Below are positions 19,313 to 25,048 of a stretch of DNA of 34,791 bases, in pieces. Numbering within the stretch: position 1 is the stretch's first letter; every line of letters starts with the position of its first letter. Below the pieces are notes generated by a model that was given only the letters and a program-made list of their open reading frames with translations, was not told the DNA's origin and ran no database searches. The translations under genes were made by a program, and so were the position numbers. Source of the DNA: Bacteroides sp. Lineage in GTDB: Bacteria; Bacteroidota; Bacteroidia; Bacteroidales; Muribaculaceae. The DNA lies in NCBI GenBank assembly GCA_014801785.1, contig JAAVDN010000015.1:17673-52463 (forward strand), read 5' to 3'.

Positions 19313-19840
19313 TTATGTCAGTGCGTCCAAAAGTCCGGAACAACTGTCTTCGAGCAGATCGAGGACAAGCTCGAATCCTTCCGCTCCTTCATAATAGGGG
19401 TCCGGGACACTCTCCGCTCCTGCATGGTGACGGGCGAAATCGGTCATTCTGACAATCTTGCGCTCATCTTCGGGTGTGCGGGCGCGGTCAAGAAGTTCTT
19501 CGACATTGTTGTCATCCATGGCGACGACCATGTCGAACTCTCCGAAATCGTATGGACGCACCTGCCGGGCCCTGTGGGTCAGCTCCAGGCCACGCCGTGA
19601 GGCGTGGACGCGCATCCGTTTGTCAGGAAGGTCGCCGACATGCCACCCTCCGATTCCGGCCGAATCGATTTCAAATCGATTCGCGACTCCGCGCTCCGCG
19701 ACCAGAGCCTCCATGACTCCCTGGGCGGCCGGAGAGCGGCATATATTACCCAGGCACACGAACAGTATCTTTATTTTCTCTTTGCCTTTCAGTGAGTTAA
19801 TTAGTTCTATTGTTTTATGGTTTACTTTGTGGTTTACCAT
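19313..19840 (-). CDS. Low-molecular-weight protein tyrosine phosphatase; 5' end altered by insertion
   Basis: A cytoplasmic cysteine phosphatase of 175 aa. The P-loop is VCLGNICRSPAAQG with catalytic Cys29 and Arg35, and the general-acid loop is DPYYEGAEGFE near residue 150. Family members usually begin a few residues before ILFVCLGN. Here there are about 20 extra residues, MVNHKVNHKTIELINSLKGK, whose first part is encoded by the attachment-site repeat 19817-19837. No other ATG lies between the ATG at 19840 and the P-loop. A minus-strand -7 element at 19892-19885, inside the element, is placed to drive it. In many bacteria such phosphatases regulate exopolysaccharide tyrosine kinases; no kinase is in the window. 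Confidence 0.9.
   Translation of the reverse strand: MVNHKVNHKTIELINSLKGKEKIKILFVCLGNICRSPAAQGVMEALVAERGVANRFEIDSAGIGGWHVGDLPDKRMRVHASRRGLELTHRARQVRPYDFGEFDMVVAMDDNNVEELLDRARTPEDERKIVRMTDFARHHAGAESVPDPYYEGAEGFELVLDLLEDSCSGLLDALT
19817..19837. other. attL: left attachment repeat
   Basis: A 21-bp sequence that recurs at 24856-24876 in the same orientation with one mismatch (T at 19826, C at 24865). Each copy contains two GGTTTAC heptamers 12 bp apart. It lies in the first codons of the phosphatase gene and marks the left end of the integrated element. Confidence 0.75.
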
Positions 19841-19884
19841 TTTTATTCTTTACTTGATGAGGTTGAAAGCCTTATTAATGAGTG

Positions 19885-19892
19885 CAAAGTTA
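19885..19892 (-). promoter_or_regulatory. Outward-facing -7 element driving the phosphatase gene
   Basis: The minus strand reads TAACTTTG followed by CAC, a match to TAnnTTTG, about 45 nt upstream of the ATG at 19840. It lies inside the mobile element and points out of it. No good -33 TTTG is seen at the expected distance. Confidence 0.5.
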
Positions 19893-19956
19893 ATAAAATT
19901 AATCCGAAAATGCCGTATAGAGGGCTGACAAACACCGATATATCAAGAAAATTTCG

Positions 19957-19964
19957 TATCTTTG
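19957..19964 (+). promoter_or_regulatory. -7 element for the structured RNA
   Basis: TATCTTTG followed by CACCC matches the Bacteroidetes TAnnTTTG element and should start a plus-strand transcript near 19970. The -33 region is weak. Confidence 0.55.
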
Positions 19965-19969
19965 CACCC

Positions 19970-20197
19970 AAATAACTAAATAAAAACGCCTATGTAGCAT
20001 AGTCAGATAAAAGACATATAAAATAGAAAGCGTTAGCTTGTATTCTTGTTTCGGAAAAATCGGCAAAATTTTAATGAAGCAGTCAAGAGTAAAAGTTGAT
20101 GCCTACGGTATATCCGTGGGCTTTTACTCGTTATATGACTGCAAGGTGTTTGCCGATACCTCCGAGACGTAGACGAAGCAAAAAGTCCACGTTTTTT
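19970..20197 (+). ncRNA. Highly structured RNA of about 230 nt, family not identified
   Basis: Between a -7 element and a terminator lies a long nested hairpin. Five stems pair in strict order: GTTTCGG 20048-20054 with 20162-20168 (one G-U); ATCGGCAAA 20059-20067 with 20149-20157; GCAGTCA 20079-20085 with 20136-20142; GAGTAAAAG 20087-20095 with 20121-20129; and CCTACGG 20102-20108 with 20114-20120 (one G-U), closing on a TATAT loop. The 5' part has a CTATG/CATAG hairpin (19990-20002) and AACGC/GCGTT pairing (19985-19989 with 20030-20034). A terminal hairpin (CGTAGAC with GTCCACG) and T6 end it at about 20197. The rod with internal loops recalls 6S-type RNAs, but a leader controlling the lipoprotein gene 60 nt downstream is equally possible. 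I cannot assign an Rfam family. Confidence 0.65.
20168..20197 (+). terminator. Intrinsic terminator of the structured RNA
   Basis: CGT-A-GAC (20168-20174) pairs with GTC-C-ACG (20185-20191) around a GAAGCAAAAA loop and is followed immediately by TTTTTTATTTG. This separates the RNA from the lipoprotein gene, at least partly. Confidence 0.55.
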
Positions 20198-20259
20198 ATT
20201 TGTCTATACCTCAGCAAAAGGACTTAACAGAGTTAACAACAATCAAAATTACAAGAGCA

Positions 20260-21051
20260 ATGAAAAAATTAACTTATTTATTCGTAGCTTGTATGGTGTC
20301 TTTGGTTGTGGCAAGTTGCGGAGGTGGTTCTAATTCTTCCGAAGCAGATAGAATTGCTCAACTGGAAGATAGCATTGCAAAGCTGAATAGTAATGAGGTT
20401 AGCGATGGCAATGGTACAGATGGCAATAATTTCTCAACAACCTACAAGGCAATAGATAAGCATGGTACTACCTTTTATTTTGTACTAAACGAAGATAAAT
20501 CTGCAAAAGCCACTGCCAAAGGTATGAATGGAACAGTGTATGGTTCGTGGGAAGATTTATCTAATATCAATAGAGGTATCTGTATTGAATTAAGCGATTA
20601 TATCCCTAATATTTATTATGAAGCAGGTACCCAAGAATTTCACAGTGTGTATATAAAAGATGGGTGGTTATATGCCAAAGGTGATTATGCGAAAGCTAAC
20701 AACCCACAATGGAGAATTAAAATTGAAAAAACACAAGAAAAAGTAAAATTTCCAAATGCCACACCATCAAAACACACTTCTATTGAAGGATCATATAGAT
20801 GGCAAGGTTATTATAACGGACACTTAGTAGAATTTGCATTTCTGATTAAAGACGGAGAGGTTGTTACTGCTAATTGGAAAACAGGTGGTACTATGGGTAT
20901 GCTGTCTGGGAAAATTAACAATGGTGAGTTTTATGGAGAGACAACTTCCGTATCAGGGAATTGGGTTAAAATCGATCTACGAAGTGGTAAAGGCAAAATG
21001 GATTGGCTTGGTGAGGGTGAAAAAGATATAACCTTCACCAAAACAAATTGA
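20260..21051 (+). CDS. Lipoprotein of unknown function carried by the element
   Basis: A 263-aa predicted lipoprotein from the ATG at 20260 (MKKLTYLFVACMVSLVVASC, lipobox VVASC). A short helical or coiled segment follows (ADRIAQLEDSIAKLNS). The mature part is rich in beta strands and aromatics, with two similar halves that each contain a short Tyr/Trp-rich stretch (GSWEDLSNINRGICIELSDY; GSYRWQGYYNGHLVEFAFLI). I recognise no domain. The frame could extend back to 20200, but that region includes the end of the RNA terminator and has no signal-peptide logic. It is probably cargo displayed on a membrane surface. Codon use is A+T-rich like the rest of the element. Confidence 0.75.
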   Translation: MKKLTYLFVACMVSLVVASCGGGSNSSEADRIAQLEDSIAKLNSNEVSDGNGTDGNNFSTTYKAIDKHGTTFYFVLNEDKSAKATAKGMNGTVYGSWEDLSNINRGICIELSDYIPNIYYEAGTQEFHSVYIKDGWLYAKGDYAKANNPQWRIKIEKTQEKVKFPNATPSKHTSIEGSYRWQGYYNGHLVEFAFLIKDGEVVTANWKTGGTMGMLSGKINNGEFYGETTSVSGNWVKIDLRSGKGKMDWLGEGEKDITFTKTN

Positions 21052-21062
21052 CAGACCATCAA

Positions 21063-21704
21063 TTAACGATCTGCTTTAATCTCAAACTCAGCTTTTAACC
21101 GCTGAACTGTGCTGACAGAAACATCGCATAGTTTGGCGGTTTTTCTTATGCTGATGCCTTGTTTCAATAACTTAATTACTTGCTTGTATTCTTCGGATTT
21201 TTCTTCTTTTGACTTTGTAGAGCCTTCTTTTCTGCCGAGTTTACCGCCTTTGTCAATGTAGAGTTGACGGCCACTATTCAGACGAAATTTAATGTTTTCT
21301 CTTTCCAACTGAGCGCAGGTTGAGAGGGTGGCAATCATAACGGGGGCAAACATAGACGGCTTGCCTTCCTCGTCTAAAAGCGTGAATTGTTCCTTCTGCA
21401 TATAAAGGTTAATTCCTTCATCAACTAACATCTTCACGGTTTCAAGAACTTCAAAAGCGTTTCTTCCGAGTCGTGAAAGTTCTGACACCAAAAGCATATC
21501 AACCTTATTTGTCTTGCAGTAGTCAAGAGCCTCAACAAAGATGGGTCGCTCGTTATTTTTCTTTGCTCCACTAACCTTTTCTTCAAAAGTCTTTACGACT
21601 TCCATACCCTTATATTCGGCATACTTGTTGAGGTCGGCTATCTGGCGAGCTGTGTTCTGTCGGTCGGTGGTACTTGATACTCGTGCGTAAATTATTGCTT
21701 TCAT
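21063..21704 (-). CDS. Serine recombinase (resolvase/invertase family)
   Basis: A 213-aa site-specific recombinase of the small resolvase/invertase class. The catalytic domain starts MKAIIYARVSS with nucleophile Ser10 and Arg8. The active-site arginines lie in SELSRLGRN (Arg78, Arg81). The helix-E region (LERENIKFRLNSGRQ) leads to a C-terminal helix-turn-helix (SIRKTAKLCDVSVSTVQRL). I start at the ATG at 21704; a GTG at 21722 and an ATG at 21716 are in frame but lie at or before the predicted transcription start. It is convergent with the lipoprotein gene, 11 nt between stops. It may resolve multimers of the excised circle or invert a local segment; its site is not known. Confidence 0.9.
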   Translation of the reverse strand: MKAIIYARVSSTTDRQNTARQIADLNKYAEYKGMEVVKTFEEKVSGAKKNNERPIFVEALDYCKTNKVDMLLVSELSRLGRNAFEVLETVKMLVDEGINLYMQKEQFTLLDEEGKPSMFAPVMIATLSTCAQLERENIKFRLNSGRQLYIDKGGKLGRKEGSTKSKEEKSEEYKQVIKLLKQGISIRKTAKLCDVSVSTVQRLKAEFEIKADR

Positions 21705-21726
21705 CGTCTTTGTCATTTTCACAATA

Positions 21727-21758
21727 CAAAGGTAGTAAAAATATTTGATGTATGCAAA
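21727..21758 (-). promoter_or_regulatory. Promoter of the serine recombinase
   Basis: On the minus strand a TTTG is followed by a 20-nt spacer and TACCTTTG (21734-21727), a full match to the Bacteroidetes consensus. The start codon at 21704 lies 22 nt after the -7 element, giving a very short leader. Confidence 0.65.
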
Positions 21759-21788
21759 TAATTCTTTGATTAATTTGACTACATAATT

Positions 21789-21845
21789 TTGTATTCTGAG
21801 AAAGTGTTTGTAGATTTATTTGAATACACTTTCTAAAGAATACAA
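21789..21845. repeat. Long inverted repeat in the central intergenic region of the element
   Basis: The arms are TTGTATTCTgagAAAGTGT (21789-21807) and ACACTTTctaaAGAATACAA (21826-21845), paired except for a small internal loop, with an 18-nt A+T-rich centre. The arms lie between the divergent serine recombinase and the Rep side of the element. This is a candidate replication origin hairpin, recombinase site or operator. A plus-strand TAATTTTG at 21784-21791 touches the left arm. I see nothing else in 21846-22004. Confidence 0.6.
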
Positions 21846-22004
21846 TTTTGGAACAATAAATCTCTAACGTTCCGATATATAAAGAAAACATTAAGTAGGA
21901 AAATTTGCAGGATTCAATACCTCAACTTTTTAATCTTCAATAAATAAACTAACCTCGGATGTGATAAAACGATACTTATACAATTTCGCTAAAGCAATGA
22001 TAGA

Positions 22005-22172
22005 TTACTCAGCTGGTATCAATCGCCAATAATCTGTTAAAGCTTTACTGATTTTACGTTTGGCATCTTCGGTGTGGTGCTTGCCGTGCATGGGGTTCTT
22101 ACTACCTAATTTTGCCAACCTCATCTTAAACTTGGTGCTTTCCGATAATTTTCTTCTGATTCTTTTTGACAT
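22005..22172 (-). CDS. NUMOD3-type DNA-binding microprotein (55 aa)
   Basis: A 55-aa basic protein that runs MSKRIRRKLSESTKFKMRLA, then KLGSKNPMHGKHHTEDAKRK, then ISKALTDYWRLIPAE. The KNPMHGKHHTEDAKRKIS core is the NUMOD3 signature, a small DNA-binding motif normally found in the C-terminal part of GIY-YIG and HNH homing endonucleases. Here it stands alone with no nuclease domain. It may be an accessory DNA-binding factor such as an excisionase-like protein, or the remnant of a homing endonuclease. It lies between the inverted repeat and the divergent rep gene, 62 nt from the rep start. Confidence 0.7.
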   Translation of the reverse strand: MSKRIRRKLSESTKFKMRLAKLGSKNPMHGKHHTEDAKRKISKALTDYWRLIPAE

Positions 22173-22234
22173 ATTTTGAACTTTAATGATTTATTCGTAT
22201 ATTTATAAATAGTTCTTAACTCTGAAAAATTACA

Positions 22235-23107
22235 ATGGCTCAAAGACAATATCTATATCAAGTATCAATAGATGCTCTTGAAATAACATATACGACAACT
22301 GACGAAATGAAAGAATATCTATCGTCAGACGATGCGACATATTATTTTGGAGAAAATAAAGAGATTATTCTCAAACGGTCGGATTCTCGGTATTATAAAA
22401 ATGAGTTTACTATATGGTGTAAGGATTGGAACGAAAACAGAGGTAATTTCAAGAGAATAGTTGGATATATGCGTTTCGGCTCTTTTAATAAGAATCGGCA
22501 AAACGTGTATATAACTTATGAAAATGAGGCTCTTTATTCATGGCTGGTGGGGGCGCGGTATTATATTGAGGAGGCTTTGAATTTGGAATTTTTGCAGATT
22601 TCTAAATTTGATATTGCCGTGGATTTCAATTTCAACGTAGAAAAACACCTTATACGGCAATATAAAGATGATTCGTATGACCTTATTATAAATGGTAGGG
22701 TAGCCGACAATAAAGCGGTGTATGGGGTCGGATTCTTGTCTTGGTGGAATCCTCGGCATAGACTATTTGCTAATCCCCAAATGCTTGTCAAGAATGACAA
22801 AAGCACCTTGACAATGAAAACGTATAATAAGAAAAAGGAGATAGAGCAAGAGAGCAATAAGTATTATATTCAGGAGAAAACGGGATTTCACACGGTAATG
22901 TATAGGGTTGAAATAACGTGTAAAAATCACAAATTGTTAAAGAAAACCCTTGATGCGCTCGGTGTAAGTGATGAGTTTCTTTATGTTCATTTGGACGATG
23001 AGAATGTATTGTTAACCGTGTTTTCGCACCTACTTGATAGGGTCATACACCTACGCAAAAACCGAAAACCTATAAATATACTTGATGAGGCTCTTAAGGG
23101 CTTGTAG
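22235..23107 (+). CDS. Rep-like replication initiator (RstA/CRI/Rep_trans-like)
   Basis: A 290-aa protein resembling rolling-circle-type initiators of small plasmids and filamentous phages. Supporting segments are an N-terminal VSIDALEITY strand, VGYMRFGSFNKNRQNVYITY, the acidic strand ISKFDIAVDFNFNVEKHL (FDIAVD at 125-130), STLTMKTYNKKKE with a candidate catalytic Tyr, and VMYRVEITCKNHKLLKKTL. In the family, a tyrosine nicks one strand at the origin and the acidic residues bind metal. The exact catalytic tyrosine cannot be fixed from this one sequence. This suggests the excised element can replicate as a circle. Confidence 0.65.
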   Translation: MAQRQYLYQVSIDALEITYTTTDEMKEYLSSDDATYYFGENKEIILKRSDSRYYKNEFTIWCKDWNENRGNFKRIVGYMRFGSFNKNRQNVYITYENEALYSWLVGARYYIEEALNLEFLQISKFDIAVDFNFNVEKHLIRQYKDDSYDLIINGRVADNKAVYGVGFLSWWNPRHRLFANPQMLVKNDKSTLTMKTYNKKKEIEQESNKYYIQEKTGFHTVMYRVEITCKNHKLLKKTLDALGVSDEFLYVHLDDENVLLTVFSHLLDRVIHLRKNRKPINILDEALKGL

Positions 23108-23271
23108 ACTTATGTAATAAGTTTGGAGATGGCGTATTTTGGGGCTATTGGTTAATAGGCCGAAAATGCAAAAATGTAAAATTTTTGACACGGCTAACGG
23201 ATAGTTCGTTAAAGGTCAATTTGAGATTAATCTATCTGAAACAGAGGATACCTTGAGCCGAGTTAAATAAA

Positions 23272-24846
23272 TTAATTTTCCGATTTCCACTTCAGATAAG
23301 CCTCGTATCTTTCTAACCCTTCCGTATCGCCCTTTGCCTTTAATGCTTCTCGGATTTCGTCTTGATGTTTTTCTTCTTCCTTTGCCGATATTTCCTTGAA
23401 TATATCTTGACCGATAATTAACGACTTATTGTTAGCCTCAACAATGTTAATCGTATCAAATTCTTTGAGGTAAGTTTGAATCTCGGACGGATTGCGCCCC
23501 ATATTCTGAGCGATGAGGCCGATGGGGACGTTAGCGTGATATAACTGACTTGCATAACTATGACGTGCCGAATAAAATGTAATCGGTGGCATGCCTAACC
23601 GTTTGGCGATACGTTTGAGATTTACGTTGACTAAATAATTCATGTAGGTCATACGGCAAAATTTCACCTCTGCCGAATCGTTCTGATGGTCAAAAATTGG
23701 AAACAAATAACGCTCTAAATCGTAATCATCTAATTGGTCGTAATCGTCAAAGTAACTTCCAAACGGATTGAGGTAGGGCATCATATTAGCGGTTTCAACG
23801 ACGATCCGTGTGTGGTGGTGCGTCTTGGCTCGGTAGGTGCTGATGTCGTAATGTAGGATGGTGCGCTTATGCTTTTCGGCATAGTCAACACCGTGTAATG
23901 CTGAATCTCGCTGATATTTTTCGTTATCAACTACTTCAACTAAATGTAAATCTTTTAATTTCAAATTGGCAATATCTACTAACGCTAAACCTTGAAACAA
24001 ATAACTTGTAAGATATAACGCAAGTGAAAATTGCTCTGCGTTTATCGGTGTGAGTTTGTTCTGACCTTTCAATTTAAACTTTTGATTAACCCAATATTGC
24101 TTGAGGTCGTGTTCTCCATAGACGTTATTATCTTCTATACCTAACATACCATAACGCTGATAATAATACCTCATCAACTTGGTAATCTCGTCAATGGTTA
24201 AGGCTCGTTTCCGTGTTTGAGTATTTAACTTTTTACTAAATGTAAAGTTTGAAAATGGGGTTTCCTTAATGTAATCTTGCCTCTTGGCATAGTTGATAAT
24301 AGCCTTAAAACAATCAAAAAATTTTCTGATGGAATTATCAGAGTAGTGGCATCGTAAGTGTTCTTCAAATTCAGATAGCCAACTTGGAGTTATTTCAAAT
24401 AACTCTAAATCAATATTATTTGTATATTTTTTAATACGGTTAAGCAACGTGCGATATCCGACAGCATTATTATGACTTTGTTTTTCCTCCTTGAAAAAAG
24501 TAATACGTTCTTCAAAAAGGGAATATAAAGTTATTTGAGTGGGGGCTGATTTGGTGAGGTGTTTAACGATGGTGGCAGCTGTGTAATCGTCTTTACCTTC
24601 TAACGATAAAACATAATCGTTTGCCTTTGTCAGTTCTCGGGTTATAATGGTGTTGAGGCTACTTGCACGACTTCCTTTAACCTTGTTTTTATCCTTGTTC
24701 CACTCGGATGGTTTGCATGAGATGCCGATACTCTTATAGGTGCGTTTACCGTTATAACACACTCGCAACATTATAGGGTGTTCACCGTTGGCAAGCGTCT
24801 TGCTTGTATATAATATTGGTGTAATGGTCGGTAGGTTGCGTTTCAT
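23272..24846 (-). CDS. int: Tyrosine recombinase (integrase) of the element, box I arginine replaced
   Basis: A 524-aa integrase with the Bacteroidales layout: an N-terminal arm-binding domain (residues 1-100), a SAM-like core-binding domain (105-205) and a catalytic domain (215-480). Catalytic residues seen are the beta-hairpin Lys341 (YRAKTHHHTR), box II Arg428 (ITFYSARHSYAS), Arg451 where His is usual (NMGRNPSEIQ), and nucleophile Tyr459 (IQTYLKEF). At box I, where Bacteroidales enzymes usually read CRGM or TRGM, it has SYLFQGLALVDIANL, so Gln285 replaces arginine. I start at the ATG at 24846 (MKRNLPTITP); the frame upstream runs through the att repeat. A -7 element at 24921-24914 outside the repeat is placed to drive it. 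Confidence 0.92.
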   Translation of the reverse strand: MKRNLPTITPILYTSKTLANGEHPIMLRVCYNGKRTYKSIGISCKPSEWNKDKNKVKGSRASSLNTIITRELTKANDYVLSLEGKDDYTAATIVKHLTKSAPTQITLYSLFEERITFFKEEKQSHNNAVGYRTLLNRIKKYTNNIDLELFEITPSWLSEFEEHLRCHYSDNSIRKFFDCFKAIINYAKRQDYIKETPFSNFTFSKKLNTQTRKRALTIDEITKLMRYYYQRYGMLGIEDNNVYGEHDLKQYWVNQKFKLKGQNKLTPINAEQFSLALYLTSYLFQGLALVDIANLKLKDLHLVEVVDNEKYQRDSALHGVDYAEKHKRTILHYDISTYRAKTHHHTRIVVETANMMPYLNPFGSYFDDYDQLDDYDLERYLFPIFDHQNDSAEVKFCRMTYMNYLVNVNLKRIAKRLGMPPITFYSARHSYASQLYHANVPIGLIAQNMGRNPSEIQTYLKEFDTINIVEANNKSLIIGQDIFKEISAKEEEKHQDEIREALKAKGDTEGLERYEAYLKWKSEN

Positions 24847-24855
24847 ATCTTGCAA

Positions 24856-24876
24856 ATGGTTTACCTTGTGGTTTAC
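24856..24876. other. attR: right attachment repeat
   Basis: Right copy of the 21-bp repeat (20/21 identity with 19817-19837). It contains GGTTTAC twice, and a third GGTTTAC lies just outside at 24903-24909. The copy is 10 nt upstream of the integrase start codon. Confidence 0.75.
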
Positions 24877-24913
24877 ATAAATTGAAATAAAACCTATGAT
24901 TCGGTTTACAATG

Positions 24914-24921
24914 CAAAGATA
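24914..24921 (-). promoter_or_regulatory. Host-side -7 element now reading into the integrase
   Basis: The minus strand reads TATCTTTG followed by CATTG, a strong TAnnTTTG match. It lies outside attR, so before insertion it would have read into the phosphatase gene and it now reads into int. No good -33 TTTG is seen. Confidence 0.5.
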
Positions 24922-24926
24922 CAAAA

Positions 24927-24955
24927 TAATCCTAACACTATGAGTATTAGGATTA
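24927..24955 (-). terminator. Intrinsic terminator of the lipoprotein operon
   Basis: TAATCCTAA (24927-24935) and TTAGGATTA (24947-24955) pair perfectly, with an inner ACT/AGT stem and an ATG loop. On the minus strand the hairpin is followed by TTTTGTATC, so it fits as terminator for the genes ending at 25068. Confidence 0.6.
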
Positions 24956-25022
24956 AATTATTTATAAAATATTTTCTATTCGTTGCCCAGGCAGACAAAG
25001 AGAATCCGGATCTTTTCCTTCT

Positions 25023-25048
25023 CCTTCAGCTCCGAGGCGAGCTGAAGG
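25023..25048. terminator. Perfect 10-bp hairpin after the FKBP_N-like gene
   Basis: CCTTCAGCTC and GAGCTGAAGG pair perfectly around a CGAGGC loop, 19 nt after the stop at 25068. No U-run follows. It forms a pair with the U-containing terminator at 24927-24955 further downstream. Confidence 0.5.

Follow-up and report, generated by a model that had tools for sequence, protein, structure and literature searches.

A widespread, apparently undescribed leader RNA of Bacteroidota with a switch-like architecture

A stretch of 34,791 nucleotides from a Bacteroides sp. genome of the Muribaculaceae (contig JAAVDN010000015.1 of assembly GCA_014801785.1; the window, below) carries, inside a small mobile element, a segment whose transcript could fold into a long nested rod. 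Is this segment an RNA gene in its own right, or the 5' end of a longer message, and what would such a fold be for? An earlier note on the letters of the window had allowed either a free-standing RNA gene or a strong leader and had likened the rod to 6S RNA. From comparisons of sequence we conclude that the fold is real and belongs to a widespread, apparently undescribed leader RNA with a switch-like architecture; both the structure and the leader role are well supported. Positions are those of the window; the RNA with its strands, the promoter element, the minimal ORF and the downstream gene all lie on its forward strand.

The rod at 20048..20168 is made of five arm pairs, which nest just where the earlier note had placed them: P3 (20048-20055/20161-20168), P4 (20060-20067/20149-20156), P5 (20079-20085/20136-20142), P6 (20087-20095/20121-20129) and P7 (20101-20108/20114-20121). 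P3 and P7 contain one G-U pair each, and the earlier note had likewise seen two arm pairs that keep pairing through G-U. The segment 19970-20200 folds at -68.9 kcal/mol, compared with -42.8 +/- 3.9 for shuffled versions (z -6.7), and none of 200 shuffles folded as well. Below the rod, by eye, close homologues share a possible P0, with the 5' strand AGAC at 20012..20015 and a candidate partner at 20202-20205. A 5' hairpin at 20028..20039 (AAGC-GUUA-GCUU), also assessed by eye and kept as sequence in the alignments, would be an alternative to the basal stem P1 and exclusive with it.

Searching 393 genomes of the order by blastn with 323 bases matched 58 of them, its own included, some in the promoter or leader part only. 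We read 30 loci and aligned 27 of their RNAs with MAFFT (alignment A1), omitting L012 (a copy of L011), L018 (its RNA cut short) and L027 (a match in the promoter region only). This plain alignment has 26 consensus pairs, 16 of them compensatory, already including pairs in P3, P4 and P7. A covariance model of homologues, which the earlier note had proposed as a check, was built from nine of these RNAs (R1; the window copy was not among the nine). R1 recovered the window copy as a structured core at 20020..20195 with 87 bits (E 4.4e-18), and recovered the RNA in other Bacteroidota genomes. Across 75 aligned RNAs, 90.6% of cells pair and two-sided changes occur in 44 of 58 model pairs; compensatory changes, which the earlier note had made the touchstone of its stems, are found in all five. 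The covariation score of 0.508, from an alignment that was itself fitted to the model, compares with 0.183 after shuffling and at most 0.070 when the partner is slid by 1-3 columns. Internal-loop bases are kept on either side of P4 (GAAA/ACC and AAUUUU/GGG), and the P4 and P5 stems are highly variable across homologues.

The RNA is common and often multi-copy. R1 matches in 123 of 149 genomes of the family, 76 of 198 of the order and 19 of 198 in a sample of the phylum, counting its own genome each time, in scans that applied strict filters and scored only 14-19 candidates per genome; with 150 candidates scored, a genome holds up to 21 copies. Carriers include Paraprevotella clara, an Alistipes, Prevotella disiens and Sunxiuqinia. 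Scanning the species genomes with a DNA pattern gave at least 120 stretches; 80 of them (L130-L209) went into the model search together with L250, and L210-L249 were left out. These 81 loci yielded 75 matches in 74 loci, and none in L145, L146, L160, L161, L176, L183 or L192. Among the 80 records listed, L134, L146 and L183 bear non-Bacteroidota labels and L171 is an unlabelled uncultured bacterium. Of the former three, R1 recovers the RNA in L134 alone, which may be a binning error. DNA similarity gave no match in 72,556 plasmid and 50,697 phage records, and a pattern scan matched one viral contig.

For the counts that follow we used three sets of loci, given below in this order: 83 loci (without L001 and L039, which are window copies, and without L012, L018, L027, L049 and L056); 40 hold-out loci, drawn from the upper part of the family-scan list at places without a locus, some in genomes used before, and therefore new loci rather than a random sample; and 75 named loci, five of which were dropped as duplicates from the promoter, pseudoknot and ORF counts and kept in the signal-peptide count.

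Is the RNA followed by a gene of its own? In the window, the TAnnTTTG element that the earlier note had seen before the RNA is present at 19957-19964 (TATCTTTG), matching the Bacteroidota-type promoter, and in 142 of 190 loci the 100 nt ahead of the RNA contain the motif (63/82, 36/40 and 43/68; 48 lack it in the interval tested), whereas a control interval has it in 11 of 186. Past the RNA, the next 93 nt contain it in only 11 of 191 loci (5/83, 1/40 and 5/68). A same-strand ORF of at least 80 aa, no shorter than any opposite one, starts within 320 nt of the RNA in 151 of 177 loci. Of the remainder, 20 have no ORF of at least 80 aa starting within that distance, in some cases owing to a shorter ORF or to a first ATG within the RNA, and six have a longer opposite ORF. 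With a promoter motif upstream, a same-strand gene downstream and rarely a motif between them, the RNA is quite probably a cis-acting 5' leader.

The genes behind it tend to encode exported proteins. A simple, home-made predictor, with a few misses visible by eye, assigned signal peptides to 133 of 177 downstream ORFs (58/75, 30/40 and 45/62; 44 without one); among control ORFs of the window and the named loci it did so for 86 of 357. By this count's method 14 of 198 loci lacked a 60-aa ORF within 300 nt, and seven were too short to test. The proteins are otherwise unrelated: among the 124 of 172 downstream proteins scanned, we found 72 Pfam families, led by the TonB-dependent receptor plug and CarbopepD_reg_2 (six each) and Por secretion tails (five), and no single functional class emerged. 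Small HTH proteins, HlyD-like and LytTR-like proteins and two ECF sigma factors are among those lacking a signal peptide, some of these labels being presumptive. Similar small proteins with a WLA...V...S/TN... core, which we take to be HTH-like, stand behind the RNA in the unrelated genomes of L002, L150, L198 and L124. In the window, the downstream gene at 20260..21051 encodes a putative lipoprotein of 263 aa (MKKLTYLFVACMVSLVVASCGG...), without a match in Pfam or NCBIfam.

Where the RNA ends bears directly on whether it stands alone. The earlier note had closed it with a hairpin followed by T6. Both are present, but the hairpin (CGU-GAC/GUC-ACG) is weak, at -4.4 kcal/mol for 20168-20200 alone, and by eye is not kept across the family. 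A longer version within 20160-20200, which pairs into the U-run, reaches -9.3 kcal/mol, and a terminator-pattern scan lists only P7. In the family model, the U-run itself (20192-20197) is the 3' side of P1. Just before it, AAGUCC at 20183-20188 can form a pseudoknot with GGACUU at 20220..20225. Pairing between the strand just before the U-run and a strand 12-36 nt past the model match occurs in 128 of 193 loci and is lacking in 65. By set the counts are 58/83, 26/40 and 44/70, compared with means of 29.8, 10.9 and 31.5 (maxima 38, 17 and 39) in permutations that retain the shared ancestry of the loci; other downstream intervals give such pairing in ~7-20%. The two strands vary together, as AAGUCC/GGACUU, CUGUCCC/GGGACGG, GAGCCC/GGGCUC and AACCCG/UGGGUU. 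Because the U-run serves as a P1 strand and a kept partner strand is found downstream of it, 20197 is unlikely to be the sole or final 3' end, and the functional RNA probably reaches at least 20225. We therefore rejected a simple terminator at T6 as the fixed end of the RNA, its local hairpin being weak and the pseudoknot partner lying past it. Of the two possibilities first raised, a leader with its own promoter is supported; a free-standing RNA gene, given the partner strand past the U-run, is less likely.

The same 3' region could take part in a further helix. Strand H (CGUGGGCUUUU, 20115..20125), on the 3' side of P7 and beyond, is complementary to strand T (AAAAGUCCACG, 20181..20191), so that T may partner H, P1 or the downstream pseudoknot strand. 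In the consensus, the apical 3' strand H (GCGUGGGCU) likewise has its complement in T (AGUCCCACGC), the strand immediately before the U-run. We compared 136 distinct H/T pairs, taken from 158 rows. The pairing threshold was reached by 128 of them, and by 15.8 when the letters of T were shuffled. Permuted pairs reach it as well (mean 120, maximum 125 of 136), since H and T are both highly conserved; only the mean score separates clearly, at 20.57 for own pairs and above all 300 permutations (mean 19.19, maximum 19.65), which again retain shared ancestry. Two-sided changes are found in L045, L047, L050, L052 and L060. H also pairs within P7 in 135 of the 136, and the two helices are thus mutually exclusive. 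In this sense the RNA is built like a switch, with kept, covarying and mutually exclusive helices, one of which adjoins the U-run.

On the strength of these features, we somewhat favour an undescribed, multi-copy family of cis-acting 5' leaders of Bacteroidota with an attenuator-like, two-state design; the two-state mechanism taken by itself we consider plausible, if slightly short of probable. Transcription would start a few nucleotides past the TAnnTTTG element, at ~19971, and run into the putative lipoprotein gene of the integrated element. In state A, the long rod P2-P7 would be closed by P1, with strand T held by P1 and by the pseudoknot with the downstream GGACUU, and the mRNA would be continued and expressed. 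In state B, the apical strand H would leave P7 and pair with T, giving a long-loop helix directly before U6, a terminator-like tail, and this would then stop transcription or block expression. The kept loop bases around P4 are a likely candidate site for binding a signal, either a protein or a small molecule. The weakest link of this switching model is energetic. For the window copy, the one copy folded in this way and with pseudoknots and co-transcriptional folding outside the calculation, the free fold has -79.7 kcal/mol and the fold with H:T forced has -68.7, so that state B, weaker by 11 kcal/mol, would need a trigger or kinetic trapping. The H:T loop of that copy, 55 nt, is also long for an intrinsic terminator. 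The covarying strands predict exact compensatory pairs.

What might such a leader read? Between promoter and RNA, ~27 nt before the core, the window copy has a minimal ORF, AUG-UAG, at 19992..19997 within a GCCUAUG box. A GCC[TAC]ATG box occupies this place in 66 of 193 loci, 22-53 nt past the promoter motif (in the 45 with a motif) and 24-57 nt ahead of the RNA. Its stop follows after no codon in 31, one in 24, two in nine and four in two, closing every one of the 66 within zero to four codons; among 397 background upstream ATGs, 12.8% meet a stop within two. Of ten hold-out boxes, eight were closed within two codons and all ten within four. In 32 of the 35 boxes that have sense codons, no out-of-frame stop triplet comes before the in-frame one; together with the varying codons, this fits translation of an ORF whose peptide is irrelevant. 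As a genome-wide motif, GCCTATGTAR had 29 matches in four genomes against 20 for the reversed pattern, not clearly above this control.

Among loci lacking the box, five of the 193 have GGAGG and the rest have neither; by eye, boxless loci show GGAGG, a hairpin, or a promoter that immediately precedes the RNA. These alternatives suggest that the minimal ORF is an add-on of one subfamily. A Shine-Dalgarno-like GGAGG box replaces the AUG-stop in L018, L020, L025, L028 and L030, where no obvious start codon is seen. L036, L041 and L043 have more GCCUAUG boxes ~100-300 nt past the RNA that stop within a few codons, with the next gene far away, and one further box in L041 stays open longer.

In the subfamily of the window copy, a ribosome parked on the AUG-stop would probably bias the choice between states by blocking P0/P1. 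We offer ribosome sensing through the minimal ORF only tentatively. With hardly any coding sequence, the ribosome would sense the capacity for initiation, release or recycling, and not an amino acid. Start-stop ORFs of this kind would make it possible to test a bacterial ribosome sensor that has next to no reading frame. Plant NIP5;1 is said to have a start-stop upstream ORF in its leader; such eukaryotic ORFs likewise place a stop directly after the AUG, whereas here the setting is bacterial and includes a large conserved RNA fold. In bacteria, the leader of vmlR reportedly carries a short upstream ORF. Attenuator leaders with a short ORF, vmlR of B. subtilis being an attenuator example in the available text of PMC9226507, similarly have a promoter, a short ORF, exclusive helices and a U-run ahead of the gene. 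Unlike them, the present RNA occurs phylum-wide ahead of unrelated genes, and its ORF, an AUG-stop or one to four codons, cannot usefully read an amino acid. A still broader proposal, that the RNAs form one Bacteroidota-wide switch class in which unrelated, mostly exported proteins answer to one common signal and a large subfamily is ribosome-read through an ORF of zero to four codons, is speculative and in our judgement doubtful. If the leader reading is true, the RNA could define a surface- and secreted-protein regulon of gut and environmental Bacteroidota under one common signal.

A leader need not attenuate, however. It is possible, though we would not count on it, that this one acts only on translation or on the stability or location of the mRNA, as a 5' shield or an export-targeting tag, and that H:T is a tertiary, folding or dimer contact. 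Such a device would suit the association with exported genes and the minimal ORF, as well as the strongly favoured fold without H:T. It would also suit the place of the pseudoknot's 3' strand, which by eye is found close ahead of the start codon in many members, often as a hairpin loop. What it leaves unexplained is the strand complementary to H directly before a kept U-run, for which a device acting on translation alone has no use.

We consider it unlikely that the RNA is instead a small RNA of its own, with its 3' end at the U-run and targets in trans, other mRNAs or a protein, and with the neighbouring gene separate or reached by read-through. Its own promoter motif and strong fold would fit, as would a U-run behind both the weak local hairpin and H:T and the up to 26 of 177 loci without a fitting same-strand ORF nearby. 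Against this stand the pseudoknot partner kept past the U-run, the close same-strand ORFs, mostly with predicted signal peptides, in the other 151, and the scarcity of promoter motifs past the RNA. The GibS and FopS sRNAs of Bacteroides are among the closest known systems. In the available text of PMC11697453, FopS has 14 members in B. thetaiotaomicron with canonical promoters, and GibS and FopS are partners of RbpB. Both they and the present RNA are multi-copy Bacteroidota families with canonical promoters. However, FopS is described there as trans-acting, with a single-stranded 5' stretch and a terminator hairpin, whereas this RNA is a long rod with a pseudoknot, mostly ahead of exported-protein genes. 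The GibS model (RF04182) gave 16.1 bits at 19900-20300 (E 8.5), far from its gathering score of 115.

We also considered whether the fold might matter as DNA. The window copy lies in an integrated element of ~5.3 kb, at approximately 19746-25029, bounded by att-like 47-bp repeats (19746-19792 and 24983-25029) that align with each other and both fall in phosphatase coding sequence. Its insertion point is around the VCLGN codons of a low-molecular-weight protein-tyrosine phosphatase gene. The phosphatase frame on the left is complete, with another N-terminus that probably comes from the element, and on the right is the displaced start of the gene, the old N-terminus, ending ...EKIRILFVCLGNE. Besides the putative lipoprotein, the element encodes a tyrosine integrase, a serine recombinase and a 290-aa ORF (22235-23107). 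This ORF has no match in Pfam or NCBIfam and weak ones only in PHROG; our guess from its place is a replication protein. The leader and ~39 first codons of the lipoprotein gene are kept in L069, L136 and L068, to 20375, with similarity resuming at 21084; L081 keeps only the leader, to 20267, and resumes at 21075. Between these kept flanks, the cargo differs. If the leader reading holds, the RNA would be a ready-made leader for the cargo of mobile elements.

That relatives of the element keep the leader, and some the gene start, with an otherwise different cargo gene could also mark a DNA hairpin, a recombination or replication site at which cargo is exchanged. This is very unlikely, given that a U-G pair in P7 is kept in 65 of 75 aligned RNAs, with G-U pairs elsewhere, that the order is promoter, mini-ORF, RNA and gene, and that the RNA is common without the element. 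Relatives of its integrase (E <= 1e-60) occur in four of the 149 family genomes, its own included, as against 123 with the RNA. Unusual cargo on a small element, as the earlier note put it, thus describes the window copy and not the family.

Least credible of all is a 6S-type role, suggested by the long rod with internal loops, in which the RNA would resemble an open promoter and be bound by RNA polymerase: 6S RNA is rod-shaped with a conserved open bubble, whereas the present RNA matches neither 6S nor 6S-Flavo up to E 10, has variable P4 and P5 and a downstream pseudoknot, and stands in up to 21 copies per genome ahead of different genes. The rod is what it shares with 6S RNA (RF00013) and 6S-Flavo (RF01685); its copy number, variable stems, leader position and lack of a model match all differ. 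In its own genome, a 76%-complete assembly, we found neither RF00013, whose model detected only 5 of 14 controls, nor RF01685, whose model detected no control.

Other known families fared no better. Against Rfam 15 (4227 families), the window RNA had no match at gathering score, including the 6S/SsrS and Bacteroidales-1 families that the earlier note had singled out. Twenty homologue loci gave four matches up to E 1, all below gathering score and outside the RNA. Matches at 19900-20300 to GibS, snoR103 and mir-1993 (up to E 10; E 2.9-8.5) were rejected, as was, after search, identity as a tRNA or tmRNA. Bacteroidales-1, Flavo-1 and GUCCY-hairpin are given as structured RNA motifs of Bacteroidales or Bacteroidetes in the available text of PMC2864571; the first two are in Rfam and do not match this RNA, and GUCCY-hairpin, without an Rfam entry in that paper's table, lies outside the Rfam comparison. 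The available text of PMC8040213, PMC9723704, PMC11697453, PMC2864571 and PMC10994844 does not describe the RNA, nor did titles and abstract beginnings in the open-access literature, supplements excluded. PMC8040213 has thousands of unnamed candidates, any of which may coincide in part with this RNA.

Finally, L131, L134, L138, L140, L175, L177 and L190 have, past the RNA, another long hairpin-like repeat (GGTAAAGACAAC ... GTTGTCTTTACC, varying slightly). These are mostly termite-gut Dysgonamonadaceae MAGs, L134 being labelled Heliobacteriaceae, and the repeat stands ahead of an exported-protein gene or close to a contig end.
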